Origin: Antitrichia curtipendula
Taxonomy: Eukaryota; Streptophyta; Bryopsida; Hypnales; Leucodontaceae
Reading direction: 5' to 3'
NCBI GenBank assembly: GCA_951230915.1
Contig: OX579637.1
Coordinates: forward strand, 10,478,001 to 10,542,000
Length of the DNA: 64,000 nucleotides
Within the stretch, counting starts at the first letter, position 1. Every line of letters begins with the position of its first letter. The notes beneath the pieces were generated by a model. The model did no database searches. It was not told where the DNA came from and worked only from the letters and a program-made list of their open reading frames with translations. Shown piece by piece: positions 20,181 through 61,060 of the stretch. Both the position numbers and the translations under genes were made by a program.

Positions 20181-20319
20181 CTCTAATCATATTTTTTAGA
20201 GGTACTAAATACAAATCCATAAATCAGCAAAATGATGGTTGCGTTTATAAGAAAGATCTCTGGGAAAAGCGCCAAAAAATCATGTTCAAACATTTCTTCA
20301 AACCTCTTTTTTATGTTTT

Positions 20320-20862: not shown

Positions 20863-20940
20863 TGGGTTCCTAAGCCGTTCCATTGCTGGAACGGCTTGGC
20901 TTCAAAACCGTACGTGAGGCTTCCGCCTCATACGGCTCCT
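20863..20940 (-). ncRNA. Group II intron 3' end (domains V and VI) before the nad5 scrap
   Basis: Domain V spans 20938-20905 (GAGCCGTATGAGGCGGAAGC..CTCACGTACGGTTT). Domain VI follows as AAGCCGTTCC..GGAACGGCTT around the loop AGCAAT. Confidence 0.8.
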
Positions 20941-21559
20941 CTCAGAATTTTTATGTCTTCTTGCTTGTCTCCAATATGGCAGTGCTTGTTCATAAGTTCT
21001 CTACGAACAAACAAAGATTTCACGTTGATGTGCTCTACTTTTAGGCTCTCATGGTTTTCTAACATGTTTGGGCGATGTAATAAAAAAAGAGCCCTTTAGC
21101 TTTTTGGTTACCGCATTTGGAACCTTTAGATTTCAGTAGATAGTAGATCCGTTAAAGGTGCGCAGTAGAACGGAGAAGTCAAGAGCAAAAAAAAAATCTA
21201 GATTTTTTTGCTGTTGCGCTCTTTTTTCACGCGGCTTTTCATTTTATCAGGCTCTTATCTTGTGTTGCCAACATGTGCTTGTGGCTAGCTATCCAACTCA
21301 GTTTGACCAGGTAATATTCTCTTTTCACCCCGAAGGCCGTTGTGCAAGAGTCGTACAAAATCCAGTTATCTTGGTATACTTTCTTGTTGAAGAGCCAGCT
21401 TGTCTTTTCGGGGAAGTACTTCTGTTTGATTCTATCACGACCCCATGTCGGATGCCGTTGGTATACCCATGCTCGGATCCTTTGAAAGATATCATGGTCT
21501 AATCTCCAAAATAGATTGTTGCATTTAGAGTATTTGAAGTAGTTGCCCCATCCTACTAT
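20941..21559. other. Group II intron body / mitochondrial spacer
   Basis: No intact gene. It lies between the maturase relic and domain V, where the end of a maturase frame would be expected, but I could not recognise domain X. Confidence 0.4.
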
Positions 21560-22020
21560 TCAGGGTACTAGGGTTATGATAAGTTGGTAGGCTGCTTTTC
21601 CTTTTGACAATTGAATGGCCCGTTGCATATCTTCAAGAAATCTCCAGCAAGACTCATGAGACGGAGTTATTAAAGTTCTAACTTTGCCCCATTTCCAGAT
21701 ATGATTGATTAAAAACCCTAGAAATTGGATCCCGGATCCAGTGTCGACTACTTGGATTTTCTCTAAGTGCAATTCTAGTCCCATGCACTTTAACCATTCC
21801 CTCAAGAATGCCTGAGCTTGTTCTATGATCTCTTCGGATTGGTGAAGTACAACGAAGTCGTTGGCATATCTAACCAGTATCGGAGTTGGTCCTTTGGGAT
21901 ATGCTCTCAGTGACCACTCTGTTAAAGCCGTCTCCATCCCATGGAGAGCAATGTTGACTAGCAATGGAAAGATCACGCGATAGGTGCCCCTTTCCATGTA
22001 CTGAGCATTATTTCCTTGAA
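21560..22020 (-). pseudogene. Group II intron maturase, reverse-transcriptase fragment
   Basis: The frame holds the RT region after the catalytic block: PLLVNIALHGMETAL, then ILVRYANDFVVLHQSEE (YADD-type motif as YAND), and LHLEKIQVVDTGSGIQFLGF. The block before it, usually TPQGGVISP, reads GTYRVIFP, and the N-terminal RT blocks are absent, so it is a truncated inactive relic. On the minus strand it lies between nad2 and the nad5 intron end. Confidence 0.8.
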
Positions 22021-22030
22021 ATTTCCTATA

Positions 22031-29856: not shown

Positions 29857-32084
29857 CTATATATTATTACCACTACGTTCCCCCGTTACACGAGACGGAC
29901 CCTCATCACCCATGAGTCTTGCACTTCTGCGGCGAGGCGTATGCACAAGACTTGTTCCAACGGTGGGCCCTGCGGACCTAGCTTCCAAGTCAATGAGGCC
30001 AAACTGTCGTTTTGTTTCCGGAGAGTGGTCATCGTCGTCTTCCAACCTCCATTTCTGCTTCCGCTTGGGAGACAAGTCCACTTCCCCTGCCTTCAACGCT
30101 TTGAGTGCACTATCCACTCGACGGACCAAGGCGTTGACCGCTGCGTCATCATCTTGCATGTATAACCATGCAGGACGATCTCCTCCCATTAGAAACACCC
30201 TCCATGCACTTATGATGTCGCCCACCCTCTTATCAAATTCCCTTGCCACGTCCACATAATAATGCCCTGTAGTTGACATCACATCTATTTCCACAAAAGC
30301 ACGAACTTTTGCGGCTTGTTCCAACTTGGACAAAAGTAGGGCCCTGCCTATCAAAGTGTGATTGTACGCCGAGTATTGCTCATGGAACTCTTGAGCATGC
30401 TCTTGTTCTATCCAATTGCCATCTCCATCTTTACGCACCTCCTTTTCCGGAAATCGGAAGAATTTCTTGTGTTGCATGCTCCAATGTCCTCCCATGTTGC
30501 GACAAAACATTTCACGAGCCTCGTCATCCTCAATACCTCTGGCCCGCAACTCCACTTCTCTGTCCTTGGTCATCCACACGTAATGATCATTTTCACATAA
30601 AGACGCCTTGGTTAGGTTGTGCACTTGGTCTAATGAATTCCACGTTATAGGTTTTCCCCAATGCATGTAATTTTGAAATTTGTATGGCGCTTGGTCAAGT
30701 GGAAGGTTCCATCGATTGTATTCGTGGCCGGGGGGCATACCTTCTAAGATCCCAAGCATTTCATAGAACCTTGGGCAGAAAGGAGTTTTACACTCGGGAC
30801 ACCGTGATTGAATGAGAGATGCTTTGACAATGCATGTGACATGAAAAATGTGGCGGCATTGACCCATTGTTAGGGCTCCTTCCGGACCAGTATGACTTAG
30901 GCAAATGCTACACGTGCCCTCCATGATTCCGACGTTAGGATCACGAGCGTGCACGACTTCCTTCTCATTCTTCTTGATGTGTGCTGAAAACGTGTTGTAA
31001 GGGACCCATCCTTCCTCTGCTTCCAAGGTCCAATTGATGTGGAGATGCTGGTTGTTATTTGCATGGTTCAAGCGCTCAAACATTGTATCCATGTCTCCCC
31101 AATACGTAATGTCGGTGGACCCCCTCGGATGTGCCTCAAACATCTGTTTCAGTCGCCAAAAAGAGCTCTCCACGGCTTTGCATTCATCTTCCGACTTCAT
31201 TGCTAATTTCAGGAGCCTTTTCATTGCTCGGGATACTACGGTCGGTTTGTCTTTGAGCTTCTGTACCCATGCCAACCATCGAGAGTCCGCACTGCCCGAT
31301 GGCATGTTGCTATCCAACCACACTATTCGTTTCAAGCGCACCACCTCAGACCAAGCATGGGCATTCTCTTTGGTCGCTTCATCCAATTTTTGCTTCAATT
31401 CTTCGACCTCACTTCCTTCCGTTTGCATGGAAGCATCTTGCAATGTTGGAGTAGGATTACAAATGGCGGTTTTAGGGTTTACTTCCCTGCTCTTGTGGCC
31501 CTCCACAGCTGCATCTTTTTCAAAAGGAAGAGAGAGTTGATCACTCTCTTGAGTCTCTTGCACCTCTTGTGTTATGGGCACCAACCCTGGAATATCCTTC
31601 ATCGGCTGCTCAAATGAGCGCTCATAGATCCTCTGTAGCCTTTCGTACTTCTTTTTCAATTCATCACATTGTGCCTTCTAGTTGTCATTGGAATCGTTCA
31701 AGGCCTTCAACGTCTGATTTTCTTCTGCTAGAGCAACCAAGTCTTTCAGCTTTTCGTACTTGTTGTCAAGGAATGGTAATATAGCCTGCGTGTACTTCAT
31801 GAAAGCCACGGCACCAATAATCAGTTCAGGCAATACTTTGTCTGAGCGGCATGGGACTCCTTGGGCCACAACTTGTTGATGTGGTACATTTTTACATACT
31901 TCTTGCACATCCTGGAGTTCCAATATTCCGCAGTCTCCTTCTCCCAATCTGGCTCCGCTTTGATGTTAGGGTCGTCCGTAATCTCCAAATGGAGCCCGTG
32001 GGGTGCCCCCTTCCGTTTAGTTTTCTTACTGCTTTCCGCCCCTGGATTCATCCTACTAATATCCGCAACAACTTCACCGCTCAT
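29857..32084 (-). pseudogene. RING-H2 zinc-finger gene of a repeated family, one TAG and one frameshift
   Basis: Starts at ATG 32084 with a Lys-rich region and CKKYVKMYHINKLW. Near 31850 the coding moves to another frame (VLPELIIGAVAFMKYTQAIL), so there is a one-base shift. An in-frame TAG at 31680-31678 follows NDSNDN, and the last 600 codons are open to TAG 29859-29857. The middle has a coiled-coil-like stretch (KQKLDEATKENAHA) and then a RING-H2 finger about 30922-30785: CSIC, QCRHIFHVTC, RCPEC, with all eight ligands present. RING-H2 proteins are usually E3 ubiquitin ligases. The C-terminus is basic (RKQKWR, RRRSARL). A decayed second copy is at 43511-46240, and the first ~60 residues are shared with the gene at 36474. 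No transposase or RT is seen in it. Confidence 0.65.
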
Positions 32085-42880: not shown

Positions 42881-43510
42881 GGTACTTAGAATACAAGTTC
42901 AAATATAGGGAATAATAACTTGAATTATCCTTTTATACATCAGTATTACATTGGATGCTTGTAGCCTTGGATAGCGGTCTTTAGAAGCGGATCTACACTT
43001 TTTAGAATTCAATGTTTTATTAGAGAAAGACTCCAAAATTAGTGAACAGATAAAAGTATTAAATAGAACACTGGCTGTTTTGACAAATAGGTGGACAAAT
43101 CCATCATACAACGGACGGTTGGGCAGATAGCGAGGTCTATTCTTGCTTAGCAAATCGCAGGTACAAGGCTACTTTGCAAGGTCTGGGATAGGTCCATTGT
43201 CAAACTGTGCCAAGGATTGGTTGCAAACAAGTATAATGGCAAACGATCTCCTCATTCTTCTTCACTTCTTTTCTTCTGCGGTACCAAACTAGATGTACTA
43301 TTGTTGCTACATGTGCTAGTTGTCGGTACATGGTAAAGGGATGGGATCCTTCAACTATCATTACGAATTTTCATTTACAAATTCACTCATGTACACACAT
43401 TTCACAACGCTCTTGTACAATTAATATTTAATTTGAAGTGCTTACAAATTCAAATTGCCAATCATACCTAATTAAAGTGGTGCAGGTAGTAATGGGATGA
43501 TTTTAGGAAA
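42881..43510. other. Spacer
   Basis: No gene seen. Confidence 0.4.
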
Positions 43511-46240
43511 TGAAAAAAAAAGGACTAAACAAAAAGGACCATACATGGGCTTCATTTTGAGATTTTAGATGATCCTTGCATCAAAGCCAAAAGCAATTGA
43601 GAGAAGGAAAATACTAGACCTCTAAATTCTACAAGCAATATGTTAAAATGTACCACATTGATAAAGTGTAGCCTCAGGATTGCCAGATGACCCATATATA
43701 AGATTATTGTTTTAACCCCTAAAGGACCAAGTGTCCGTTCAACGTATGCAAGAGATCTCGGGTAGGTTCCTATAAACTCATTTTTGGTTTGGTGTTCATG
43801 AAATTTGGACACTAAGTATAAACATGTACCTCCTTCATGAAAAAATATTTTATTTTCCATCGGGTGCCCGGATCAAAAGTTATGTTGCCTTGAACTTTTT
43901 TGGCAGCTCGAGCAATTTGGGAATCTTTGGGGAATCGTTTGCAAAAAAGATTATCAGGTTCTGAAATTTGGTTTGTATATAACTAATAAAATATGGCATA
44001 TAATTGTCCAAGAAAAACAAATTTTAGTTGTCAAATCACATTCTAAGAGGAGGCAAGCTTTGTTAGCTATGTTGGGGTAGTTTCAAGAAAAAACATTTTC
44101 TTCTAACTTCAAGTCCTATTATCTTGCAATCAATGAAGTCAAAATTCTTGAAATTTTTTCCATATATTCAAAATGTTTGTCTCCAATTTCTCACCGTTTG
44201 GATTTCAAATAAAATATTTCCTCATTGCACAAAAAAATGACTAGTGTATTGCCAATTCACTTAACCTCCTTGCGTTGCAAGGTGATTTAGAATAATTTAG
44301 ATCCCATGTTTTCTTCTAAATTTTTTTGTGAGTGAACCTAATATCATATACTTACAAATGGCCAAAAATCTCATGTTTGTGTAGAGCAAAAATTTGACTT
44401 TAAATGAGTCCAAAGTCTGCTGACCCTGTTTTGCAGGATTGAAAAAAAGTTTTTTTCTCACTTCAAATGCTATAATCTTTCAATCCGCGTGGTGAAAAGG
44501 GCTGAAATTTTTTTTGCACTATGGTAAAACACTTTAGCTTAGTTTTGTATGGTTGAAATTCCAAAAAAAAATTTGATTTTCTTTTTTGAATAATATACCA
44601 AAAAGTCACAGTTTTTGGACTGTCTCCATAAAAATCCTCCTCAGTCCTTTAGGGGTTAAGCCATGGATTTGCAACCACCTGCATTTTTTCTATGAATTGG
44701 AGGAGGTGTGGCGGACCTTCTTTGAAAACAAGGCAAAGAATAAGAGACACATGAACTATAGTGTGGCATCCATGGTGTATGCAGAACTCATATTGGCCCG
44801 CAAGGTGCATTGAAGTACGTTTTCAACAACAACACAATTTTCACTTTTGACTGGGAGAAATATTGTGAAAAAATGTGAGGCATCTTCTTTGCCACAAGAA
44901 GATATCAATGAAGAACAAATTGCAAGGGCCAATGCTACAATTAATAGTCTTATAGATAGCAATGTTCTAGACAGTCTGACATATAAACCTCAAAATCCTT
45001 CCTTGCCAACAATATCAAATTCAACTTTATGTCCCAAATTTGAAGTGCATCCACCACAAAGAAATGAAAAGCAATCCATCTATGTGGCAATAAATTTTAC
45101 CATTGATGGCGGAGACATTGAGAGCAAGTATTTGCATTTGTTAGCTTTAGGCAAGTTCCAACCGGAGCTTATTTGTCAAATGCCTAGTACCAAGGAACTA
45201 AAAGACTTATTGGAGTGTTCCTTTTGGTGAAAAAAATTTGAGGAACAACATAGAGAATTTGAACTCAAGAACAAGACCAATAGCTCTATTCCACCCAAAT
45301 GTGGAGCTATATTTGGCCATTTTCTGCAAACCATTTACTCATTGACATGTTTAGCTCCACTTGTAGTGCAAATTTCTCTAATGGTTATGGAAATGGTAGA
45401 AGAATTAGCCAAGAAGTTGACTGAGCTATTAATCGGTACCTTGGTTTTTATGAATTATTATTTTAATTGATTTCTTGTTACTTTTCAACAGCAAGGTGAA
45501 CAATCTAAAACATTTGATGGCCTTTGATGAAGACAATTAGAAGTTGATGGTAGAGCGTGAGGACTTGGTATAAAAGTTAGAGATGTTGGAGAAGACTTGA
45601 AAGCGCAAAAAGTCTATAATGCTTGCCCACATGAATTTTATTGACAGTTTGAAGAATCAAATAGCGGAGTTGCAGCTCACTGCGGGCCATGTCAACGTCC
45701 CATTCATGGAGAAAAGTCAAGAATTTAGATGAGGTTGAGGACATCGGCAAAGGTGAAGTGGTAGTACGTACCGCCACCCTTAACACTATCTCCATATTTA
45801 CAGATGCTTCCATGTAAGGTGAAGGTCATGAGTTTGAAGAGATAAAACAAAAATTGGACAAGGTAATTCCAAAAAAGGTTGTTGCCTAGTTGAAGTTGGA
45901 TCGATAGAAATGAACAATGAACATAGATGAATACATGCCATAGAATGGATTGAAGTCTTATGGTTGACATGGATACAAAAACTTCAAGACAAACTCTCTA
46001 TAATATCTTGAGCAATGTAAGGGCTTTGTAAAATTGAAATGAAGTTGGATGAAAAATGCAATGCTGTTGAGACCTCTTTGACAAAGTTCAAGAGCATGAT
46101 TGATCAACATCTGTGTGGAGAATACACCAAAAGTACATGTTGGGGAGATATAAATACCATATTCGAGTGGTTGAACCACACAAAGAAGGAAGAGGGTACC
46201 CAAATTGGAAGTAGAGGAAGCAGGGTTGCTATTTTGTGAG
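43511..46240 (+). pseudogene. Decayed second copy of the RING-gene family
   Basis: Translating the plus strand gives, with stops and shifts, the same order as the 32084-29857 gene. Near 43515 there is a Lys-rich start followed by KQYVKMYHIDKV (about 43635). At 44700-44810 a stretch like that in the 36474 gene appears (NYSVASMVYAELILA). At 46039-46200 MKLDEKCNAVETSLTKFKSM..WGDINTIFEWLNH matches DECKAVESSF..WGDMDTMFERLNH of the RING gene. The RING finger itself is absent because the copy ends near 46240. Many stops make it clearly dead. Confidence 0.65.
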
Positions 46241-46609
46241 CCTGTGAGCGTGTGAGCATGCGAGCATACTTTTTTTTTGTTCAAAATTGATGAAGTACCT
46301 ATGACCGTGGAAATTGGAATGAAGACTACACCTCACAATGTATGATGGAAAAAAAATTGTGATTTAAATTTTTTGATTGTAGAGTAACTCAATCCATTTT
46401 TAGTGAAATTCAAATTTTATTCATACTATGTTAGGATTTTTATAAAGAAAAAGATATTTAGTCTACAAATCACGATTGCAGTGAAGTAAGGCTATTAATT
46501 TTTGTTGTTTGATCTGGATTTTGTAGATAATTCTAATTGAAGTACAAAAAACAACGTACAATAAATAATAAAATAAAAATCAACGCCCAAAAACGAACAA
46601 AAAATAGAG
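46241..46609. other. AT-rich spacer
   Basis: No gene seen; probable 3' region of the minus-strand gene that ends at 46610. Confidence 0.4.
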
Positions 46610-49600
46610 TTATGTAGATGATGAAGACATAGAATGAGAGTGGTCACTACTCTCAATCGATGAGATCTCCTGCTCTGATTCTAGGACTATCTCATCTATA
46701 AATTGTAGAATTGTAGGGTCTAAAGACTTAGACTTTCTCCGTCCACAAAAATCCTCTTGACAGGCCAATGTCCTAGCTACAGCCTCTACATACGATGGCA
46801 ACAGAAAGGGCTTCTCCGGGCTTGGAAAAAACGATGGTAGAGAGAAAAATGGCCGGGGAGCCACCGAATTGCAAGTCATGCTGCAAATGAAAAAATGATA
46901 ATTAGGAATGACAAAAAGTTTACGTTCACAAAGAAAGAAGCTTACAAGAAAAAGTTGAAGTGAAATTAATGAATAGTATACATCTCTCTTTAGAAAGTTT
47001 GGAACAAAAGCAAGCATGGGTAGACTTACTTACTGAAACGAGATTTCTTCACAATGTGGGGAACTTCAATTTCCTGACCTTCATCATCGTCAGAATCCTG
47101 TACAACGGCAGCGACTTTAGGTGGAACATCTTTTTGTGCACGAATCATTGAGGCCAAAATTGCCTCAAAAATGCCTTTGTCTTCCTCAAGTGCAATGAAG
47201 TGTCTGCTCAAAAACTTGCAGGCGTAGATGAAAGCCCCTAATCCACAGATCAAAACAAATCGAATTACTACAATATTCAATGAGAATTGGAGAAAAAATA
47301 AGAATACACATAAACAATAGAAGACAGTGAATGCTCATGCAAATACCTGTCGCAACAGTGCAATCAATGACAACATCGTTGGCAAACGTTGATGCTTCTA
47401 TCAACATTTGCATGAAACAGGGATCCTTCTTTCTTGCACCCCTCCAAGGTTTGAATTTGCTATCCATGGTCAACGTCTCTTTCTTCGTGAAATTCTGAAT
47501 AACATCATCAATTGCCACATCTACTCCTAGCTCCCTCAGCTTTGGGCATGGCTGGAATTGAAACTTGGAAGGACCAATACCATCCAAGTTCCTGAACAAC
47601 AACATGACGCAGAAGAATTGAGTCTGCAAGAGTGCAAAGGTACACGTTGAATTAGTCCAAATTGAATGATCAAATATAAACTATTAGTTGCCATAACAAA
47701 CCCATAGAAGCTGAAATGTCATCAATTAAGACAATTGAAATATAAGTTAACAAAAAATGCACCACCTGCAATAGAAGATGTCATATTCAAGAATGAAATC
47801 ATTTTTGTCAACATAAGACAAATAAATGAATAAACTAGGAAAAAGTGAAGGATGATCATACCGTACATCTAGTAGACATTGGTGAGGCCAGGTGAAGCCA
47901 GTTCGTTCCCCACCAATCCTTCATCTTTTTAAATGAATATGTTGCAACGTACTTCAAAATCGTAGCCTTCACGACAGGACTCCGAGAATGAATAATGAGT
48001 AATGCACCGTCATCGTGCAAATGACCATCAGCGAACTCAAACACCGCATCCATCCAAGAAGGGTGGACCATGTTCCACTTCGGAACACTATTTGCAGGTA
48101 CTGATAAACCTGAGACAAGCAAACCCTCGGGCATGTCCGCAATGACGAGGTCTACTCGGGGTTTATCACTCCGAACACCACCAAAGAAGCACTCCTTCTC
48201 TCCTATGTGCTGCAAAATCATTTAGCCGGTTAGGAAATAGACCATATCATTGTTTGGAAGGACAACCACCAAAAAAAATGAAAGAAAGTGAAAATGCAAA
48301 CCTTGTCAACAAAACTAACAATGTCGTGGTATACTTGGGGAAGAAGATCGGCCAAGACATCAGTAAGAGAGTAATTTAGAACCAGCTCGTCAATCAAAAT
48401 CTCTGAATCCTGCAGGTACTCCACAGTGGATGGACCATGCTGCATCTCGTCATTGCTGAGTGAAGCATACTCAGAATCACAATTGGTGCCACGTGAATTC
48501 GACCGCTAATGGTGGGAGCCCTCGTCTTTGGTGGATGAACGTAAGCCATCCTCTCGGGAATCCTTCTCCTTCCCCTTGTCCTTCTCCGCTGGTAGTACTT
48601 GCATAGACTCAGTAAGCTTCTTTATCTTCTTCGTGGCTCTCTCCTTTGCCTTGTCTACCGCCTCGGAGTTCTTGAGCGCAATTTTTTTGTTGATGTTGTC
48701 TCTCCTCTTGATTGCCTTCGCCTTGGCATCCTCATCAAGATCGGCAAACTCGTCCACATCCTCAACCACAGCATGGGTATTGATCGTCTTCTTCAGATGC
48801 TTCTCAGGCAATAACATGAATTCCGGCGGACAATCCAAATACCACGCACCGGTTTTCAAATGCAAACTCGTCCACCATTTCAATTGCGACCCCGAGAACA
48901 TGCAATGCTCGGATGAAACATCCAACCATGTTCCCAAAAATGCAGGTAGATCGTGCCTCTCAATTGCCCCCTTAGGCAACGGCTCATATTTGAAATACCT
49001 GTACAGACCAAATTCTTCAAAATTTAGAAAATGATCCAACAACGGCAATAAACGAACTTAATTAAGCATATCACAATGGCATTAAGATATCAAAATTCTT
49101 ATCGGTAGATCACCTGTTTCACAACTAGATCAGTGCCCTTGTGTTTCTTGAAGTCATCTGACTTTCTGAAGACATCGTATCCCCTAAATTGGGTCAAGAA
49201 AGCATGGTCCCATATTCGAATTCTCCAGTCCTCAACATAATCTGGAAAACTGTCGGGCTCCTGAGGAGAGTCCATAGCTAACTTTAGCTGGTCTTTCTTC
49301 ACAATGTTATCAAACATTTCAGCTCCCGTGTCATGTATCTACAAGGCCATTAAAAGTCATGATGTATACTAATAGATTACGTCGCAATCATAATTGCAAT
49401 AACCATGTAATGTCACTGTGGAATAGATGACAACCAGAAAATGAGATGAATAAAACATCAATGAAATACAAGAAGATCACTTATCCTTGCATACCAGCAC
49501 GCCTTCATTAGGAAAGACCTCAATTCTATCTCTCCAGTTGGCTTCAATGGGAACCTTCTTGCCTCCCTTGTCTGAACTGATGAGTTCCACCATGTGAGCC

Positions 49601-50638
49601 ACTTTACCTTATGCTCCTTGCTAACGTTGCATGTTGCAATCGACTGCTACTTCTCCAGAGTTATTTCTGGAATGATGTTGGAGCTCCAATGATGCTCGAT
49701 CTAAAAGCAAATATCAATTTAAGTTGAATGAACTAAATGAAACAAGAACAAAAGAAAGAGAGGTCTAAAGAGATGTTATCATACCTCCTAGAGCCACTCT
49801 TTTCCCAAATTGGAATTGGCTACAACAATCAGCTTTCCCAACTTCTGAACTAACTTTGATGTCTTCTCCTTCGTACCTAACCTCATTGTAGCCATGACAC
49901 CTATCTCTGACTGCAGCTCCACAGGTGTCTCTTTCCTATACAACTTAACTGCTAGGTCAACAGCCGCTGCTATCTCATACTGCAAAACAACATGCGAGTG
50001 AGAAAAATATTGGAAGGATTAATGCTTCTAAACAGCTAATACATAGAAAGAATACACACATGTTGATTTTTACCCGATAGATGAATGAAGTGAACACCTC
50101 AATCAACATTGAGTACCAACTTTTACGAAGATTTTGTTGGCACTGAGAAATCTTGGACTCACTCAAATGCTCAGAGAACTTCTCAAGAGGAAGCATGCCA
50201 TATTTCTGAACACAATAGAGCGTATGAACAAGACTGGTCTTGATGAACAAACTTTTTGTATGCCTGAAACAGAAAACAAAAACGTCAAATTCTTCCAAAA
50301 TGATCATATGGGAAACAAAAAATGAAAAAGTGCCTGAATGGGAGCACTTACTTATTGATGTCGTGCATAGTATGCATGGCATCACCAATCCTCCCATTTG
50401 TGTCAAGAATGATTGAGTCCACTGATATATGCCAATCCTTGTCACGGTTGTGGTGTTTACTAATGTAAGAGGTCCACGCCAGAAGTCTATGGTTGCCATC
50501 ACAGACGAAGAACTTGGACCCCTTGAAGTTTTGCAAGCCTGGTGTGGTGTCGATAATCGCATTGAAGATGTTGTTCTCTTCATTCCACATCGGCCCCCAA
50601 GCCTCTCTTTCCGCATCAGTCACCATCTCAGTCTCCCC
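46610..50638 (-). pseudogene. ParB-like / beta-class amino-methyltransferase fusion gene, ten exons
   Basis: Exons (minus): 50638-50352, 50263-50074, 49979-49785, 49700-49495, 49338-49114, ~48998-48302, 48209-47862, 47623-47347, 47237-47030, 46880-46610. All but the 5/6 junction have GT..AG ends and matching phases. Exon 1 carries FFVCDGNHRLLAW then ISVDSIIL, a ParB/sulfiredoxin-like signature. Exon 7 has VDLVIADMPEGL (position of the DPPY motif) and LHDDGALLIIHS. Exons 8-9 join as FANDVVIDCTVATG|AF..YACKFLSRHFIALEEDK, the FxGxG-type SAM motif. Catalytic motif before SAM motif is the permuted beta-class order of N4/N6 amino-methyltransferases. Defects are in-frame TAGs at 49790-49788, 49649-49647 and 48508-48506, a one-base shift near 49605, an unclear exon 5/6 phase, and DPPY degenerate to DMPE. 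The 5' end is lost against the repeat element at ~50700. Final stop TAA. Confidence 0.65.
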
Positions 50639-50639
50639 C

Positions 50640-51837
50640 TGCTCATTAGTGAGTGTGTCGCAACACAGGATAAGCAATTCCCATGTTATACTCCCAAAAA
50701 CCACTCTAAAGCATAACAAAGTGACTCTAAAGATCGAACCCACGAGATTCTGTGAAGTATCTAGCCTTATTAACGAACTAAGCCAAGTCAGTAGTAATAT
50801 CCATCTTTTTCGGTCCTCTCTCTATGACCGGAAGTTCAAACACCCAGAAAACAAAGGACCGGATTCTTTCTATCTTCCGATTCCAGCTAGTCTTCCGATT
50901 ATCGAATCCAACACAATCCCAAGACCCTATCTCTTCCGGTCCGGGTATCCGTCTAGGCCAATCCGCTCTAGACAACTCACAACCATTTCCTCTCCTATCC
51001 GGTTTGGTTTTACCTCTGTTTAGCCATCAGAGGGTTCGCCGCTTGCTTTTGAGAGTGGTAGGCCCACCACACCTTCCGTGACTTATAGTGGCTGAAGACC
51101 CACTTTCCAAATCTCTTCCTTCCTAGGCTAGTACGGATCCGGTTTGGTCCTTCACAGCAATCCAGATTGCAATCCGGTCCACTGGTCACACAAAGACCCC
51201 CCGTACGATCCTCTCAATACTACAACGACCCTGATGTCATCCTATTCCGTGCGAAGCTAAGGCGGTTACAAGTGTACCCGTCCGTTCCAACGTCAACTAG
51301 AATTCTTCCGTTTACTACTAAGATGGCGAGACCTCACAGGAGATCGGACACTCAACCGGATTTCTCACCCAGGAGTTCTAGCGTGACTAAGGACTCTCTC
51401 CCTATCCGCCTAGCCTAACAACAACTTTCTCACCCGGAATCTCAAATTCTAGACGCGCTGAGGCACTGAAGTTCACTCCCAACTCTATCCTATCCGCTCA
51501 CATGCACTTAGAACCAAGAAAAACACCAAGGGGAGAAATCCCAACGCATCCGCTCGTGCTTTCCGAACTCCCTCACGCACAACTCTGCCAAAACATGGGA
51601 GAACGTACAACAAGAAAGTACAAAGAGAGAACACAAAGAAAATGTAGATGGAAAGACTCCCCGTCCTCAGCACAAGGACTGAATTATATACACTTTGAGA
51701 ACTTCCAAAAATAACAAAAGGCAAAAAGAGCCGTTAAAAGTCAACCTAAATCCGGATCCTATCTTCCGGTCCTCCTAACACTACCGGTTCGGATTACTAA
51801 TCCGGATCCGTTCCTATCCTATCTTTCCTAACTTATT
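50640..51837 (-). mobile_element. 3' region of repeat-family copy C
   Basis: From 51837 down to about 51057 the minus strand matches the plus strand 63237-64000 behind copy D (AACGGATCCGGATTAGTA, TAGGTTGACTTTT, TTTTTGGAAGTT, GGAAGGTGTGGTGGGCCTAC). It continues below 51057 with CCGG-rich sequence until about 50750, where the ParB-methyltransferase gene begins. It carries no RT, integrase or RNase H. Confidence 0.65.
51682..51690 (-). promoter_or_regulatory. TATA-like box in the 3' region of copy C
   Basis: TATATAATT on the minus strand in AAAGTGTATATAATTCAGTCC-like context; the same box is at 63390 behind copy D. Confidence 0.45.
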
Positions 51838-53445
51838 CTACATCGCTATCCCGCGCCCCAACGAAGGACTCTTGGGCTCCGCCTCCAATTGCTCGAAGAC
51901 TTCTTCCAAGTTCCTGTTCCGCTCTCCGGCCATCGGATTTGGCATGTCAGAACCGGGAGAGTCTTCGATGTTGATCGGCGCGGTCTGGGAAGGCTGACTT
52001 GGCTTTGACTGCGGAGTCTGGTCCCTTCCTTCCCTTGGGTCTGGCACTTCCGGAAACGATTCCGGCATGGAGATGTCCGATAGGTGGACCCTCATCGATC
52101 CGGTCAACTTCTGTGTACACTCCTCCATCCGGTCCGCCGCTCCTTGTGCTAAGACCAAATTCTTCTCCACCTGCTCAGAGAAGTCAGTCAGGATCCGGAC
52201 TATCCGGGTACCGGATAGTTTCTTCTCCTCCAAGACTTTCTCGTCGAAGAGTCTGGCCCTGACTGCCACGCTTCCGGTCTCACCGAAAGTCGCCTTTACT
52301 GATTCCGCCACCTTCTGCGTTTCGTCCGCCATTACCCGGGTGGCGGCCATATCTTCCTTGAAGGTGGCCACTTCCGCCTTCAACATGTCGACCTCCTCTT
52401 GAAGTCGACGGATCTCTGCTTCCTGCTTTCGGATCTCGACCGGATTGGTGATGCACTCCGCTACCTTCCCTGGCAACTTGCTATCCGGTGCTGCCTGCAC
52501 CAACTCTCCGATCTGGATTAGGGCGATTCTCTTTGCCTCCCAGTCCGTGCGGATGTCGACGAGGGTCTTCACCAATTTCTCGAACGGGTCGACCGGTCCC
52601 TTCTTCGAACAGCTTGTCTTCTCCCCTTCCGGTGTCTTCTCCTTTCCGGTTTTATCACCGAGTGGAGATCCTCTTCCGGTCGGAGACGTCGTCTTGTGCC
52701 GCTTGGGCTGCCTCTCCGCCTCTTCTTCATCTTCTTCTTCTTCTTCTGTCTCGGATCCGGTTTCCTCTTCCTCCTCGTCCGTTTCCAATTCTCCGTATTT
52801 CAGGAGATTTTCCTGGGCCTTCTACTCCTTCTCTTCCGAGTCTAAAAGGAGCTGGTGTTGCTCATAGAGGTGGAAGAGGTAGAGACACACGGGTGTCGGC
52901 CTACTCCTTCCGACTCTCGTCGCCAACTGGGCCACCAGATCGAACATGATCCGGGCCCAGTCCGCTTTCCGGTCACCGCTCAGGGCACCGAAAATAGTGT
53001 TGCCGAGGGTGATTGTCACCCTTGTCGGCGTCTCCGGATGGAGGATCGGGATCAGGAACTGTAACAGTTTCCAGTGCCGGTCGTCGATGCAGTCTTCCAC
53101 CGCGTATCCGTCCTTGGGGTTGACCGCTCCTCAGAACTTGCCCCGGACGTACTCGTCCTTCCGGTTTGCCATCCCGTGGCCTCCTGCCCGGAACTTATAA
53201 ACCTCCCTCCAGATCTCTTCCGTCCATTGATGTGGAATACAGCGGATCGTGTTGTCGAACTGGTTCATCCACTTCCCCTGGATCTCCTTCACCATCCGCT
53301 CGTCCTTAAAACCCCAGGGTTTGTCGAGCAAACCCTGGCACCCCATCCAGTTGAGATCCAACTGGAGCATCTCCATCTCCTCCTCTATCGAAGGGAGAAC
53401 CGGAACGACCTTCTGGAGTTTGACCGGAGCCGACGGAAACTTTAC
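51838..53445 (-). pseudogene. Repeat-family coiled-coil protein, copy C (two stops, start lost)
   Basis: Same protein as copy D: SAPVKLQKVVPVLP at about 53430, MGCQGLLDKPWGFKDERMV, WTEEIWREVYKFR, then RHWKLLQFLIPILHPETPTR..TLGNTIFGAL. A TGA (about 53132) replaces the Trp seen in copy D (GKFW), and a TAG follows SEEKE (about 52821) at the same codon as in copy D. After it 316 codons are open: acidic runs, KRHKTT, a long coiled coil (EIRKQEAEIRRLQEEVDML..) and a C-terminus ending EAEPKSPSLGRGIAM, stop TAG 51840-51838. The start region near 53450-53480 is disrupted where copy B begins. Confidence 0.7.
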
Positions 53446-53499
53446 TTTTGGGAGTGTCCTGGTCCTCCTCCCCTATTCAGGGTTGACTTTTGGTCTGGG

Positions 53500-54990
53500 A
53501 TCCGTGCGTAGACCCTTTCTTGTTCCAGACTCAATTCAACTTGTTGACTATGAAGACTACGGGATCTTCATGCTACTCTTATCTTTCTGCGTTGTTGATA
53601 TGGGCAAAAAAGATGTCGAAACCACCTTGGAAGATTCACTTCCTTCCCTTGACCGGATAACTTCCCTGTTTTCAGTTTTGGATCAATTTTCTGTACAATG
53701 GCCTTCATCTCCAACAAATTTGTCTCCATCTTCTCTCCAAAATCTACCAAGACAGCCACGATCTTCAGCCCAATCTGTGACCCTTCCTTCAACACTCTAG
53801 AATCAAACAACTTGGCTTTGTTTAATACGTCACCCGGATTCCCGATGAAGTTCTAGATCCGGGTGAGAGCTTCATGGTACTCCAGAGAGAGTCTTGCTTC
53901 TTCAAACTTCTGTTTCAACTTGGTCTGAAGATCTCTTTCCTGGCTAGATAAGTCTTTTGTTCTCTCCTCTAACTTCTTCACTCCTTTGTTCTGAAGGAGA
54001 CTCTCCACTCCTTTATAAAGGTCAGATGGATTGGACTTTCCTATCAACTCACACATTTTCTGGATGAACTCTCTCTCACCGGAAACTTGATACCTAATCC
54101 CTTCTAGCTCCTCTATGACCTTGCTAAACGGATCATCCTTCCGGTCAATTGCCCAAATTGGATCTTTCCTCGCACTCTTTTCAGCCAGTGCTTTATCTTT
54201 CCTTGGACTTCTATCACTTCTTCTGGTTATGAAGACACCTCACCACACTTTTTTCCCTTAACGTCTTCTTCCGGTCCCAGACTAATCTTGTATTGGAACA
54301 TCACCGCCGCTAATTTATATCATGGCCTTTCTTTTTCCCTCAGCAAATCTAAGGACTAGTAAAGGTGGAAGAGAAATGGACTAAGGCTAGATGGTTTGGT
54401 CTTTCCGGCCGTGGTGCACATCTTTAAAACTAGGTCCCGTACTACCAATCCCCAATGCACCTTTCTCTCTCCGGATAGTGCTTAAAAAATAATATTAGCT
54501 AAGATGACCGTGAACCGGGTTGGCCTTTCTGGATTTAGGACTAGGACTAAGAACTCTAACACTCTCCTGTACCTTTGATTTGCACAATCCGCTATTGCGT
54601 AGCCATCTCTGGGGTTTACAAGGTTAGAAAACTTATTATTGCAGAACTTGTTTAGCCGGGAAGCCCATCCTTCTCCCTCAGGCAGAAAACAGTACACCAT
54701 TGCCCACAGCTCCACTGACCACTTTTACGGTTGAGCTTTCACCATACCCTGCCACTTGCTTGACAAATCCATAAGGAGCTCTCACACCATCACTTCGTCC
54801 CTTAGGTTCCACGGAACGTGGAGCAAACCTTGGCATCCGATCTGCTGCAGATCCTCATCCACGAACTCTCTCTCTTTCTTCCGCTTGGGCACGCCCAAAA
54901 TCACTGACCGAAGGGCAACCAGATGCAGTTCTTCCTCACTCTCAACCTTCACCATCTCTCCCAACTCTCTAAGAGAAGATCACACGTCTA
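53500..54990 (-). pseudogene. Repeat-family protein, copy B, heavily decayed
   Basis: Recognisable pieces in order on the minus strand are DEDLQQIGCQGLLHVPWNLRD (54880-54790), PRDGYAIADCANQRYRRVLEFLVLVLNPERPTRFTV (54640-54500) and coiled-coil scraps to 53570. At least ten stops and shifts are present. It lies head-to-tail before copy C and is the oldest copy by decay. Confidence 0.6.
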
Positions 54991-56289
54991 AATACTCTCT
55001 CCAGTATAAGAATCCGCTCACAAGTATCCGAATTCTATTCTCCTACTCTTCTCTCAGCCATGTATTAGGAAACCGGAAATTCAAAACACTTCAACTTCAC
55101 TCGCCAAAGCACTCACACAACCACATAGCTCCTTAGACTCAAAAAAATTCAAATGCAAAGTGAAACAAGTGAGAGGAATGGCCTCCATTCACCTATCCCT
55201 GAATCCGGTTCTGTAGCCATTGAGTTTACCGTTGCGACTATCATGTGGATTTTCTATCCGTTCTTCTTTCCCGTTCAGCGTCCAATACTATCCGTTGGCA
55301 TTCGATTGAGTTCCGAATCCGGATCCGGTACCTTGCAAAGTCTTCTTGCTGTCCAGGTCGGTCATTTCGGATTCCGGGTTCTAGTTAGGTTGGAAATGTT
55401 AATTTCCCTCCTTAACCATTTTACCTAACTCAAATATCCTAAGTTTTACTAATCCAAAACTTTAGTAATTTATCCCCTTCTATCTTGTAGAAGCAAATAC
55501 AATATACTAAGGGTAGATTCTTTACTTCTAAATCTACATGAACAAATGCAAATCATGTTTTTTAGTTTGCCACAAAATCCACATAGTCCATCCCCTAGGC
55601 TTTAATAATCAAATAATCTTCTAGGTTGCATACAAGGTAGAAGTTGTAGGCCGCTTTTTTTTAATTTATTTTGATGGTTGATTATTATAACTAAGCCACA
55701 ATCCTACAAATGGGGTGACATTTTCTATAAAGGAGATAATGCCATTGAAAATTGAACTTTAGATTTCATAGAAGCCAACCACTTAGAGACATTTTTCTAA
55801 AGGCAATTTAACTCCACGTTGGTCCTATTTGACCTGTGCATTGATGTTGTAGTCTTAGTTTTCCAAACCCTTATTATTATTTTGTTTCATTTTCCTACAC
55901 CTGAGATGCAAAGGCAAATGGGTAGGGACATTGTCACAATAAGGCGAGCACGTTGTGGGAACACCAAGGTATAGGCGGGGACTTCATAGGTGGTGGACAA
56001 GAAAGCTTTTTTGTTTAGACATTGACTATTCTAGACACGGGTATCGGCGCCCAGGGTTGTTCTGCGCGACCTGGCGACATCGCGACAGACAGACGTCACG
56101 TGACATCCAATAGACCCTCCGCGACGTCACATAAAGTCAAATTTACCTTTGACTTTTTAAAAAATTACCCCCCTTTTACCTAAGCCACGTGGATGCCATG
56201 TGGCGTCCGCGTGGCACATTGTAGGGCGCATGCGGGTGTGACGTGGACGGGCGACTTTGGGTAATCTAGGTGTAAGCACGCGTAATCTA
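54991..56289. other. Unassigned stretch between repeat copies
   Basis: 54991-55430 still has the CCGGATCC-rich style of the repeat family, and 55430-56000 is AT-rich. 56040-56270 is GC-rich with many CACGTG/GTGGCGTCC words. No gene seen. Confidence 0.4.
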
Positions 56290-57120
56290 GGTGTAAGCAC
56301 CTTTAACACACAATTGTGGTTAGATGACACGGAAAATCGTCCCAGGGACTCTACTATGTTGCTATAAATTTGGATTTAATCGGATTATCTCTAAAACACC
56401 CCAAGGGAACCTAAAACCTCTCTTTCCCTCTTCCGGAACTTTACTTCTTTCCGGTTTCTAATCCGGATCCGTCCTTTTCCGGAATCCGGATATAGTAACT
56501 CTTCGGTTTGTAATACCCCTGTTTTACCTTCAGGGGGTCCGCTTTTACTCTTTGAAGGGGCAGGGACTCCACCACTTATCAGTTACACAGTCTAACACCT
56601 ACAAAACAACCCAAGATACTCAACAGATCTAAATGTTGCAATAAAGTAGGTTTCCGTCTCCTCACGACTTTCCGGATGGCCTATCCAGAAAGCAGGTCAC
56701 ACAGAATCCGGTCTCTCCTCTCCACTACAACGACAGATACATAACTATCCGGATTTAACACAAGAGAAATTCTATGAGATAGTAGGCGACACTGCAGTTG
56801 GCAGATCTTCCGGTAAGTAGGGGTTTTCCCCTTGGCGGCTGCTTAACTCCGCACGGAACCAGAAGTGGTTCCGGAACCTCACCCTCAACACTCCAATCGG
56901 ATTACTGTTCTAGTAATTTAAAGATTCTAAATGCACAAGTCCCACAGATCCGTCCTAACTTCGCCACAGATTCTCCCTTACTGTTTTATTCCAAACAATT
57001 ATGGGATCCGGATTCCTCCTTCCTAGTCCCTCACAACTTCTCCAAGAAAACACACACACACACCACCCAAGTCATCCAAAAATACTTTAAACACATGGAA
57101 AGTATACTCGGTGTCTCAGA
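56290..57120. repeat. Dispersed repeat (second copy of the 6.2-7.1 kb repeat)
   Basis: Matches 6529-7110 directly and 6220-6510 in reverse. It lies downstream of copy A on the minus strand and contains CAGGGGGTCCGC and GGGCAGGGACTCCACCACTTA. It may be an LTR or 3' region of the element. Confidence 0.6.
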
Positions 57121-57364
57121 TTTGAAATGAGGAAATTGAAATGAAACTTCAAATTGCATAAGGAGGAATGAATGGGCAACAGACCTGCCCACCATTTAAA
57201 ACCCAAAACAAAAAGGGAAAAGGGGACCGAAAATCAAGCTAACCAACTACAAAAGAAGCCGAGATACTCGGCACCGAAAATTATCCCTAAAAATCCGGAA
57301 ACGGGCCCACACTTACGGAAAATTCTGTTCCGGAAACTAAAAAAATCCTAACTATCCGTCCTAT
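57121..57364 (-). other. 3' region of copy A
   Basis: No frame; CCGG-rich, follows the TAG of copy A. Confidence 0.4.
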
Positions 57365-59314
57365 CTACTTTCCGCGGCGCGTCTTCTTTGAACTACTTCC
57401 GCCTTGATTCGTAACTTCCTTCAGGTTGGCCTTGACAGGAGTCGACCGGAGAGCCGCGCGAGTCTGAATCTTCCTGGGAGGGGGCGGAAGATCTTCATCT
57501 GTTTCCGTCATGGATCCGGATTCGTAGTCGTCCTTGTCCGAATCCACGATCTCATTTACATCCTCCATCTCGTCCAGGTCGATGGGAGCTTCTTTCCCCT
57601 TTGGTGCTTCCCCTTCTGGTGCATCCGTCTCGCGCATATGCACAAAATCCTGGGGACTTGTCCGAGCCGGATTGGCCACCAACCCCATCCTCCTGATGAG
57701 GTTGTTATCCTCCATCGACTGTGTCTGTTTTACGGAATCGGAAGTTCCGCCATGTACTTGTGCGGGGGTTACCGCTTCCACTGGTGTTTCCGCCTGAGTC
57801 GGAGTACCTTGGGCTGGAATCTTCGCGGCGATCTGACTCCTCTGCGCCAACCATCCCTGTGGAATTTCGTGTGGCCGAAGAAGTGACCCAAGTCCTTCTG
57901 ATTTCGAGCGGATGGAGCTCTCGCCCACAGGTTTCACCGGAGTCTGAAGGTACGGATTGGTTGACAGATCCGGAAACGATGAGAAATTCATCGCCTGTTC
58001 CGGATCCACCCGAGCCACCAACGCCTGCATTTCCTTCAAGACTCTCTCCATCCTCGTTTGGAAGTCCATCAGGATCATCACCACCTTCGATCCAGTGATG
58101 TGTCCATCCGTCACCAGCTGTACGTCGTAAAGGGCCGCCTTGTTAACCAAATCCGCCGGTTGGGTGACCAGCGACTGCAAACTCCGAACCATGCCGAGGG
58201 CGTCCTTCTCATTCCGTCTCGCCAAGGAACATTCTCCTTCCGCCCAACTGGTCCGGGCTTGGAATTCATCCCGGGTCTTCTCCAGATTCCGGATCTCCTC
58301 GTCCTTCAGGCGGATCGTATCCGAATCCGGCCTTCGTCGGATCTCATCGATAATCTCCTCGGGCGGAACCTTCAGCTCGTCCGCGACCTCCTGGATGAAC
58401 GCGGTTGTCCTCACATGTAGGAGTCGCGCCTGTACCATCCATTGGTCCCCGACGTCGAAGAACTCCTTTCCGGAATTTCTTCTCTCCTCCGGAACTTGGT
58501 CCGGCTCCACTGGGTTCATTTCGGGCTGCTTCCCCCTTGAACCCGGATCCGTGGATTTCCGCTTGGTTCCCCTCCGCTTGATCCGGTCCTCCTCGAGTTC
58601 CTCCTCTTCCTCAACTGGGACATCCTCCTGGACTTCATCCATCAATCCGTACTTGAGGATTTCGCATCCGGTTTCGTAGATGAGAGTCTCATCCGGTGTC
58701 AGTACATCTCCATGATGGTACAGGTGGAAAAGGTAGGGGCAGATCGGGCTGTACTTAGCCTTGCTGACGTGATCCGCCAATTTGGTGACCACCGTCGCGA
58801 TAACTCTTCCCCAATGCACCACCCTCTCCTCCAGGCTTCCGAAAATTGTGTTGGCCACTGTTACGGTGACCCGGCTCGGCTTTTCCGGATAGAGTATCGG
58901 AATCATAAATTCCAATACTCTCCGGTGACGCTCGTTGATGCAGTCCGCGATTGCATAGCCTTCCTTGGCGTTGGGTGGATTCCGGAACTTCCCTGTTGCA
59001 AACTTATCCGCCTTGGAAGCCAAGCCGTTCCCGAACTTCCGAAACTGATACACCTCTACCCAGACGTCTTCCGTCCATTCCTTCCTCTGTCCTCTCACAG
59101 TCAGCTCGTACTGATTCGCCGTCCCATCAATGAGTTCCTGAATCAACTCATCTTTCTTCAAGTTCCAGGGTCTCTCTATCAGCCCTACGCATCCCATCCG
59201 TCGGAGATCCTCCTCCAACTCCTTCCGGACCTCCGGGTCATTTGGTATCGCCGGACAGACCATCCGGGCGATGACCGACACCCTCGCGGATCTCGGATTA
59301 CTACTTTCCGCCAT
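57365..59314 (-). CDS. Intact member of the repeat-family coiled-coil protein (copy A)
   Basis: 649 residues from ATG 59314 (an earlier GTG is less likely) to TAG 57367-57365. Residues 30-130: RMGCVGLIERPWNLKK, WTEDVWVEVYQFRKFGNG, GYAIADCINERH. Residues 130-205 (RRVLEFMIPILYPEKPSRVTV..ANTIFG..HWGRVIATVV..SPICPYLFHLY) resemble the plant transposon-protein domain Transposase_32 in pattern. Then an acidic stretch and NLS-like RRGTKRKS. Residues 290-440 are charged and coiled-coil-like, and the C-terminus is Pro-rich and acidic, ending KKTRRGK. A gag-like or accessory structural role in a retroelement is a guess. No protease, RT or integrase is nearby. It is the only undamaged copy of four, so it is either young or under selection. 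Confidence 0.65.
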   Translation of the reverse strand: MAESSNPRSARVSVIARMVCPAIPNDPEVRKELEEDLRRMGCVGLIERPWNLKKDELIQELIDGTANQYELTVRGQRKEWTEDVWVEVYQFRKFGNGLASKADKFATGKFRNPPNAKEGYAIADCINERHRRVLEFMIPILYPEKPSRVTVTVANTIFGSLEERVVHWGRVIATVVTKLADHVSKAKYSPICPYLFHLYHHGDVLTPDETLIYETGCEILKYGLMDEVQEDVPVEEEEELEEDRIKRRGTKRKSTDPGSRGKQPEMNPVEPDQVPEERRNSGKEFFDVGDQWMVQARLLHVRTTAFIQEVADELKVPPEEIIDEIRRRPDSDTIRLKDEEIRNLEKTRDEFQARTSWAEGECSLARRNEKDALGMVRSLQSLVTQPADLVNKAALYDVQLVTDGHITGSKVVMILMDFQTRMERVLKEMQALVARVDPEQAMNFSSFPDLSTNPYLQTPVKPVGESSIRSKSEGLGSLLRPHEIPQGWLAQRSQIAAKIPAQGTPTQAETPVEAVTPAQVHGGTSDSVKQTQSMEDNNLIRRMGLVANPARTSPQDFVHMRETDAPEGEAPKGKEAPIDLDEMEDVNEIVDSDKDDYESGSMTETDEDLPPPPRKIQTRAALRSTPVKANLKEVTNQGGSSSKKTRRGK

Positions 59315-59752
59315 TCGGAACCCGGAAACTACTGGCCTCACCTCTCGCTATCCGTAAACGCACTCTCACCAGACTTTCTCTCAACTAGCTAAGCGCGAAC
59401 GAGTTTGAAAACTCAAAAGATGAAGAGAGAAAGGCGGGTGGTGGTCTTTAAATAGCCAGAACAGCGCCTTTAGTTCCCGGATTGGAATCGAATTAGGGTT
59501 CTATTCCCGAGGCGCATCCCCTAGCCTCGTAGGTCGGATCCCTAGTTCGTAGGTGGCGGCGTTCCGGTTCATTTCCGGAAACCCTAACTTGGCCGGATCG
59601 GAAACTGGTTTCCGGATGAAGGCTTATTCCAAACGTAAGCTCTTCCGAAAAACAACTACCATTTCTTAACCTAAAGAAGTTTGAAAATTTCTACCTATTC
59701 CATCTATTCTACTCTATCTATACGGAACTTAGGTTTCCGTGTTGTGACAACG
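59315..59752 (-). mobile_element. 5' region of copy A with LTR-like start
   Basis: Begins near 59752 with TGTCACAACACGGAAACC, similar to the starts of the E fragment (TGTCGCAGTCC) and of copy D (TGTTGCAACC). It interrupts the E fragment, so copy A inserted into it. No target duplication could be confirmed. Confidence 0.5.
59446..59454 (-). promoter_or_regulatory. TATA box of copy A
   Basis: TATTTAAAG on the minus strand, 132 bp before the ATG. Confidence 0.5.
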
Positions 59753-60380
59753 TGGATGGACCTGGTCTGTTCCGCCTAAGCTGCGGTATGGACACAGACT
59801 AGATCTAAGACAGTCCTTTCCGATTCTACCTCACACAGTCCTAGCCGCACGTCCCGTTCTCTCGTTCTCTCTCCGATCTCAACCGGAATCCTGCACAGCG
59901 ATCGGTACGCAATCGGAAACCTACCCTGCAACACACCTCTAACACTCGCACACTCACGCACACACGCGAACACTCACACAGCGCCGAAACACGAGGAGCG
60001 CGACAAAACACTCTCACCAAACGGAGTTTGGAAAAAGGAATGCGACTGAGGAGGTGCTGGCCTTTTATAGTCTCTCTTGACCTAAAAATCGTCATGATGA
60101 CGTTTACCGGTCCGGTCCCACCAATCCGGTCTAACCCTAATCCGGTTCTATACCCCCAATCTGGTCCACTACTACTTCCGGCCAAGGATCCGATTCCAAT
60201 CCGGTTCCTGGGTGTCACCACTAGGATTGGATTCGTGCCAACTATTCCACTATTTCAATGTCTTTCCTAATTTTCCGTCCTCTGCTGTTTCTAGACAAAA
60301 CCTACATACTAATCGATAGTTTCCGTTCCGTTTTCTAGATAAACAACTGAAAACCAAAAATTCGGACTGCGACAGAGTGA
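59753..60380 (-). mobile_element. Truncated 5' fragment (E) of a copy-D-like element
   Basis: The minus strand matches 61061-61640: GAATTTTTGGTTTTCA, TATAAAAGG (60069-60061), ACCAAACTCCGTTTGG-like block, GTGTGAGTGTTAGAGGTGTG, CTAGTCTGTGTCCAT. The start codon is ATA instead of ATG (59785 region), and coding stops after about a dozen codons at the insertion of copy A. Confidence 0.7.
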
Positions 60381-60778
60381 CATATAAAAAACATTCGATC
60401 CATCTCTATACCCATGAACAAACTCTTCTTCCAATTTGGTGAGATCACTCTGAAGTGCGGGTCTAACCATGGGCATTTAGACAAGGCGACATAACGGAAT
60501 CCTTAGCCAAGATATGGAATTAGGCTTCAGGCGTAAATTGGCGATGGAGGCCACAGAATTCACCTTCTGTGACCTCCTATAGGCATCCTCTGATTTGAAT
60601 TCCTCTTAAGCCTCCCCCATACCTTGGTCAGTATTCATGATCACATTGTCATCGACAACGAGGGTTACATGCTCCATTCCAGACTCCAAAACTGGAACCG
60701 GTGCATCTACTTCCATCTGAAACATACAGGACAACGAAGAAGGTCACTGAGTATACAGAAGACTTGTGGCGGATCTCA
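60381..60778. other. Spacer
   Basis: No gene seen. Confidence 0.4.
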
Positions 60779-60780
60779 AC

Positions 60781-61060
60781 TCGTATGATTAGACCCTTCG
60801 GGGCGGCCCCTTCCCCTCGACCTCGAAGGTAGGGCCAGGGGAGGGCTGGCTTGATGTTGTCTGAGAGAACCAAAATAAAAATGGAGAGAGGGTGGCTATA
60901 GCTCACCTTGTATGATCAGACCCCCCAGGAAGGCTCCTTCCCCTCAGCGCCAAAGGCAGGGCCAGGGGAGGGGTGGCTTGATGCTGTTGAGGAAAATAAA
61001 AATAAGAACAGAGAGAAGGTGGCACGGGAGCTCACCTCGTATGATCAGACCCCTCGGGGC
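60781..61060. repeat. Tandem repeat, unit 127-129 bp, two full copies and part of a third
   Basis: TYGTATGATYAGACCC starts at 60781, 60908 and 61037. Units share CCCCTTCCCCTC, GGGCCAGGGGAGGG and TGGCTTGATG. Confidence 0.75.

Follow-up and report, generated by a model that had tools for sequence, protein, structure and literature searches.

An accessory gene of a large DNA transposon in Antitrichia curtipendula joins a DGNHR motif to an altered methyltransferase-like domain

Introduction

Among described systems, the closest to the gene examined here is that of Ectocarpus Sola1-1, for which the passages on this element (PMC12477816, Dinatale et al. 2025) describe a protein of 1104 residues that joins a ParB-like and a methyltransferase domain and is encoded on the opposite strand to the transposase; the same passages cite green- and red-algal transposon cases and giant EnSpm elements in red algae. 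The present gene lies on the minus strand, at 50638-46610, of a 64,000-nucleotide stretch of Antitrichia curtipendula contig OX579637.1, hereafter the window. All coordinates are window positions unless a paralogous region is named, and those beyond 64000 come from an extension by the next 10 kb. Like the Sola1-1 gene as published, it is carried as an accessory gene by a large eukaryotic DNA transposon, stands on the opposite strand to the transposase, and would combine a ParB-like with an N4/N6 methyltransferase part in a product expected to exceed 1,000 residues. The carriers differ, being Sola1 there, whereas here target duplications of 9-10 bp and a transposase with SWIM- and CxxH-type motifs suggest a Mutator-like element, the published proteins being compared by their description. 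The host genome here also holds plant-like mitochondrial fragments.

Two further systems are related through the methyltransferase part. Bce_0392 of Bacillus cereus, mentioned in PMC5512222, is a bacterial ParB-methylase fusion, and with it and the DpnA/CcrM-type enzymes (PF01555) the present gene shares the permuted motifs IV and I, its S-adenosylmethionine (SAM) region aligning significantly and its exon 7 aligning to motif IV; it differs from them in having D-[MLI]-P-E in place of DPPY, a degenerate FxGxG loop and the structure of a spliced eukaryotic gene. The bdelloid N4CMT (PMC8885841) belongs, like this one, to the permuted beta class of amino-methyltransferases and is encoded in a eukaryotic nucleus, but the relevant part of that paper describes a chromodomain protein and reports N4-methylcytosine (4mC) in the host, whereas here the gene belongs to a transposon and has altered motifs. 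The literature searched for ParB/methyltransferase transposons contained no further description that we recognised, most subscription papers lying outside the coverage of the search. Relative to the published cases, the putatively Mutator-like, strongly amplified carrier and, as far as the published descriptions go, the fixed non-canonical active site appear to be new.

Results and Discussion

The gene comprises ten exons, separated by introns that begin with GT and end with AG. Counterparts of every exon stand in the same order in six of the six paralogous regions fetched from the same genome (designated C1arr, C2, C4a, C4b, C9a and C10), and therefore the splice model stands, as it had been proposed in a first-pass annotation made from the letters of the window. 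All exons lie on the minus strand. The 3' part of exon 1 (50352-50655) encodes CDGNHRLLAW, a ParB/sulfiredoxin-like motif, and is followed by exon 2 (50074-50263), exon 3 (49785-49979) with one TAG close to its end, exon 4 (49495-49700) with another TAG, and exon 5 (49114-49338). Exon 6 (48302-48997) is a linker exon with one in-frame TAG; the border between exons 5 and 6 as drawn is one base out of phase, and the 5' border of exon 6 is uncertain by a base. The catalytic region is encoded by exon 7 (47862-48209), with DMPEGL at the place of DPPY. Exon 8 (47347-47623) holds the first half of the SAM motif, VVIDCTVATG, and has a phase-1 donor, while exon 9 (47237 to about 47030) holds the second half (GAFIYACKFLSRHFIALEEDK) and yields profile matches; their join in phase 1 restores VVIDCTVATG-AFIYACKFLSRHFIALEEDK. 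Exon 10 (46610-46880) forms the 3' end and closes with TAA. The peptides quoted in the first-pass annotation and the phase-1 intron between exons 8 and 9 were both verified in the sequence.

The three TAGs reported earlier in exons 3, 4 and 6 are real. The paralogues have V, Q or D at the place of the first, L at the second, and Q (E in C4a) at the third, and because amino acids are read there, the TAGs are lesions of the window copy. A fourth TAG lies in a 5' part of exon 1 (60378-60630, minus strand, beginning SEDAYRRSQKVNSVASIANLRLKP) that has been displaced by an insertion of ~9.7 kb (about 50656-60377) with TG...CA ends and a 5-bp GAGTG duplication. The exon-1 start first placed at 50638 has to be moved for this reason, given that 118-168 further in-frame residues precede this point in five of the six paralogous regions, and 38 in C1arr. 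Gag-like frames occur inside the insertion; a pair of long terminal repeats was sought in it and none was found. With four TAGs and an exon 1 split by 9.7 kb, the window copy is, as read from these lesions, a dead pseudogene of a transposon accessory gene. A frameshift in exon 4 was considered as well and rejected, since the paralogues show a single frame across this exon apart from the TAG, and so was a reassignment of TAG, the paralogue stops being a mix of TAG, TGA and TAA.

To judge from its termini, neighbours and copies, the gene is one of the two carried by a DNA transposon that bears terminal inverted repeats; it is the accessory one, and it diverges from a putative transposase gene. 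The ends of the element are short, imperfect and inverted; CAACGGTGCTAGACTGTGAGC and CAGGGTTGCTATTCTGTGAGC point inward and in four of the six regions are separated by 12.1-15.0 kb. The target duplications span 10 bp without a mismatch in C1arr and C4b, and match at 8/10 positions in C9a and 8/9 in C4a; for C2 and C10 one end only lay within the stretch fetched. In C4a the end at 17172 was used (1 mismatch, with the duplication), a second candidate at 16510 having 3 mismatches. The long inverted repeats of C1arr (64-979/16508-17423) were rejected as element ends, because this repeat recurs in the region and the ends with the duplicated target lie inside it. In the window, a transposon terminus (CAGGGTTGCTATTTTGTGAGC, 46221-46241, plus strand) adjoins the 3' end of the gene and has 1 mismatch to the paralogue terminus (0 such matches expected by chance), and comparison with the paralogue termini places the other terminus at about 71454.

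The putative transposase gene lies upstream of the accessory gene and diverges from it in five of the six regions (not C2) and in the window element, where comparison with the paralogues places it at 67151-70999. Its copies contain CLLHW and CTCPDF...NCKH, which we take to be the CxxH-after-second-D and SWIM CxCxnCxH motifs of Mutator-like element (MULE) transposases. The length of the target duplications (9-10 bp) and these motifs suggest that the carrier is Mutator-like. In five of the six regions, the stretch between the divergent genes holds an array of 105-139 bp repeats that terminates near exon 1; it has about 14.5 copies in C9a and C10, and in C2:32089600-32101110 a 107-bp unit is repeated about 108 times at 95% match. 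The window element has 129-bp units in its central region at 60771-61059, and the array continues at 64402-65612. This arrangement suggests a putative binding array for the element's protein.

In the 400-Mb genome, 150 places were scored for exon 1 and 150 for exon 7, and both numbers are lower bounds, given that the first look gave 1119 and 1128 candidates, respectively. Of the 150 exon-7 places, 129 are preceded by exon 1 on the same strand, at a distance of 2-3 kb in 122 of them, and the control for wrong order or wrong strand gave 0. Matches free of stops, counted for single exons and not for whole genes, amount to 119/150 for exon 1 and 111/150 for exon 7, and among the 129 pairs, 86 have no stop in either exon. 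Exon 1 also has close relatives on many other contigs. Fifteen exon-1 matches of equal score stand every 38-69 kb, on both strands, in C1:41449264-42117180, either through recent segmental amplification or as an assembly effect, and the counts are inflated because of them.

The C-terminal half of the protein is, judging from profile matches and motif order, homologous to the permuted (beta-class) amino-DNA-methyltransferases, as had been claimed earlier. Exons 8-9 match N6_N4_Mtase (PF01555) of Pfam with E=2.6e-4 and 21.4 bits, under the curated cut-off of 26.7, the CcrM model of NCBIfam with E=1.1e-4, five methylase families of PHROGs at E<0.006 (best 6.9e-5), and PDB entry 5hfj with E=2e-4. 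The SAM motif underlies these matches. Taken by itself, exon 7 was aligned by hhalign to phage methylases with E=6.3e-6 and probability 85, VDLI.DMPEGL falling on VDMILTDPPYGT; the query was a five-sequence profile of the window and four metagenomic relatives, the target was a nine-member phage methylase alignment with one poorly aligned member, and the E-value is pairwise. Exon 7 alone gave no Pfam match in five of five sequences and no match in the PDB profile search. The catalytic motif IV (exon 7) precedes the SAM motif I (exons 8-9) in the window and in six of six paralogues, which is the order first read from the window. A search with the full-length protein, whose query included a wrong-frame stretch of exon 4, retained 0 of 7611 candidates at E<=10, and no relative was found in the viral-contig scans or in prokaryote contigs. 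The AlphaFold model of exon 7 with four homologues was poor, with a predicted local distance difference test (pLDDT) score of 50.6, and a Foldseek list, with no entry at E<=0.001, was left unused.

The catalytic motif itself is altered in every copy read. Across 27 exon-7 sequences (the window, the six regions, 16 further genome copies picked across the identity range from matches listed without stops, and four metagenomic sequences), DPPY is replaced by D-[MLI]-P-E, with D25, P27, E28 and L30 invariant, position 26 being M in 19, L in 7 and I in one, and DPPY present in none. For exon 7 the median ratio of nonsynonymous to synonymous substitution rates (dN/dS) is 0.126, from 121 usable pairs out of 231 among 22 DNA sequences, the other 110 having been dropped because their dS was saturated or did not exceed 0.1. 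When five to seven exons are taken together, the ratio is 0.07-0.11 in seven pairs with dS>1 and 0.18-0.43 in three recent pairs, five pairs with C4b having no usable dS; these ratios are rough because dS is near saturation. The sequence of the accessory gene has evidently evolved under constraint across element subfamilies. With D-[MLI]-P-E fixed across all 27 sequences and a low dN/dS, the missing DPPY is not decay. The motif had earlier been described as degenerate in this copy and as a sign of a dying gene; the copy is indeed dying, from its TAGs and its insertion, and the loss of DPPY plays no part in this.

All seven copies read have DC[TI]xxTGA as motif I, with the last Gly kept and the Phe and first Gly of FxGxG lost, and an acid downstream of it is found as ALEED or ALEDD in six of the seven, the frame of C4a being broken there. 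A search for PF01555 across the whole genome, which might have revealed the intact DPPY paralogues that the first-pass annotation proposed to look for, gave 0 matches at E<=0.001 (its positive control matched in 11/14 genomes); since this search takes exons one at a time and overlooked even the gene in the window, a canonical paralogue may exist. A second, diverged branch of this two-domain family was seen beside the copy in the C9a region, with FFVWNGNHR and, in the one copy read, DIKDGL at the place of motif IV. The search with this branch scored 150 places, at least 17 of them common to the first set in the parts of the lists compared.

These observations bear on whether the protein could be an active methyltransferase of non-canonical chemistry, in which D-[MLI]-P-E still methylates adenine-N6, cytosine-N4 or another atom and marks the DNA of the element. 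Such an enzyme would fit the low dN/dS, the retention in motif IV of D and of the second P, and the acid that follows the second SAM-site strand, and a published proposal for Sola1-1, in the passages of PMC12477816 that deal with it, points the same way. Nonetheless, none of the 27 sequences keeps the aromatic residue of DPPY, the first Gly of the GxG loop is missing from all seven motif-I sequences read, and the second branch has DIKDGL in the one copy read; activity of this kind appears rather unlikely.

The N-terminal half was earlier named a ParB-like domain. Its DGNHR motif stands, as CDGNHR, in 13 of 13 and 16 of 16 aligned exon-1 sequences (alignments A5 and A6, 29 rows with three loci in both, A5 consisting of chosen stop-free copies only). 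We take DG(N/H)HR to be the ParB/sulfiredoxin motif, and the succession of elements, in which an IPLCR-type strand, a helix and another strand come before DGNHR, presumably fits the ParB/sulfiredoxin (Srx) fold. The Pfam scans covered the window part, three full exon-1 frames and three relatives; in one of the three relatives an edge match to DUF1015 (PF06245), which we presume to be ParB/Srx-like, was obtained with E=0.002, below the cut-off. Dermatopontin and the other profile matches of exon 1 are at chance level. The profile of 13 exon-1 copies retrieved 564 proteins at E<=10 among 3716 candidates, and the best 120 of these 564 have E<=1.7e-64 and 51-89% identity, none of them with a Pfam domain. 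An AlphaFold model of the truncated exon 1 alone had a pLDDT of 47.7, too low for use. A tblastn search of phages with the full exon 1 gave two records at E about 3, which were not used. As a yardstick for ParB in phages, PF02195 was found in 0 of 7 phage records; Dmt of phage P1 was tried for the same purpose and rejected, being a D12 and C5 methylase without ParB, and it gave no exon-1 match.

Given that no profile confirms ParB, the domain is named ParB-like by motif and analogy only, and on the motif and the published look-alikes this naming is plausible; the ParB part of the earlier claim found no confirmation in the Pfam, NCBIfam, PHROGs or PDB searches. The same absence of ParB from all four resources would be expected if DGNHR were a coincidence within a transposon-specific domain. 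This is doubtful, since CDGNHR is kept in all 29 rows, the order of strands and helix agrees with the fold, one relative touches DUF1015, and the published algal transposon proteins, as far as the passages on them go, join ParB-like and methyltransferase domains.

Taken together, the gene probably encodes a DNA-binding, methyltransferase-like helper of the transposon that is catalytically altered or dead, perhaps with an anti-silencing role. The N-terminal half would be a ParB/sulfiredoxin-type domain that binds the element's DNA, most likely the array between the two promoters, and the methyltransferase-like half would bind DNA or SAM without standard amino-methylation of a base, as a pseudo-enzyme or with altered chemistry. 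The product may then shield the element's promoter from host silencing or shape the transposition complex. METTL14 is a pseudo-enzyme in its pair, and VANC proteins are the anti-silencing proteins of the Arabidopsis VANDAL elements, which are of Mutator type, where they are encoded by a second gene with short tandem repeats nearby. The present gene resembles VANC in its place as second gene of a putatively Mutator-like element and in the tandem repeats that lie close by; VANC is, to our knowledge, not methyltransferase-like, and anti-silencing is proposed here by analogy. A fuller scenario, which we offer tentatively and with somewhat less than even expectation, is that a plant-lineage group of Mutator-like transposons converted a ParB-methyltransferase of bacterial origin into a DNA-binding pseudo-methyltransferase, or into an enzyme with a new D-[ML]-P-E catalytic site, that loads on the array between the two promoters and blocks host silencing.

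Several observations weigh against this interpretation of a transposon helper. The target duplication of the window element could not be shown at the extended far flank, because that flank differs, and C4a is without the repeat array. The transposase has no Pfam match, neither to a MULE nor to a SWIM profile, and exon 1 has no match to a ParB profile (PF02195 or relatives) in the Pfam, NCBIfam, PHROGs and PDB searches. Most of the six regions are damaged, with stops in C1arr, C2 and C4b, a frame break in exon 9 of C4a and frame breaks in exons 6 and 7 of C9a, and only C10 is without a stop or frame break in any exon. Finally, the E that replaces Y may itself act in catalysis.

The first-pass idea of a bacterial ParB-methyltransferase that entered the nucleus as a host gene, was intronised and is now dying agrees with the ten exons and with the stops and insertion of the window copy, but it is refuted by the paired termini and target duplications shared by the copies examined, and at least 150 dispersed scored places per exon, constraint across subfamilies and close exon-1 relatives on many other contigs also make it extremely improbable. 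An element-encoded gene, raised earlier as the alternative, is what the paired termini, the target duplications and the copy number point to.

If the fuller scenario given above is true, the element, now spread in hundreds of copies, would constitute an anti-silencing system made from a methyltransferase. The copies read show that methyltransferase-like genes of large eukaryotic transposons can be very successful with a non-canonical catalytic motif under constraint; because transposon copies thrive with the altered motif, the annotation of such genes is no evidence for N6-methyladenine (6mA) or 4mC. For work on how a transposon helper protein acts, it provides a defined element with numerous natural variants and with an array that the protein may bind.

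Surroundings of the element

The transposon has inserted into a decayed relative of a RING/coiled-coil gene (43153-46220, plus strand), whose homology ends at 46223, at the transposon terminus, and which resumes on the same strand at 73046-73781. A short insert resembling a miniature inverted-repeat transposable element lies within this relative at 43713-44660, with TTAACCCCTAAAGGAC and its reverse complement at TTAA. An open RING-finger/coiled-coil frame, to which the decayed copy is related, is found at 29857-31677 (minus strand; zf-RING_2, E=3.1e-7), and the RING-finger gene may itself be repeated and element-borne.

Transposase exons of a second related element occupy 1687-5303 on the plus strand, with a possible terminus at 6044 on the minus strand (5 mismatches). 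Two long open frames on the minus strand encode a DUF7869 protein (9132-11903, E=1.1e-42) and a hAT-type transposase with DUF659 and Dimer_Tnp_hAT (24647-27514). The block at 16413-22030 is organelle-like, with group II introns, three tRNA-like genes and frames that we take to be atp6- and nad2-like; it is probably nuclear mitochondrial DNA of a plant-lineage host.

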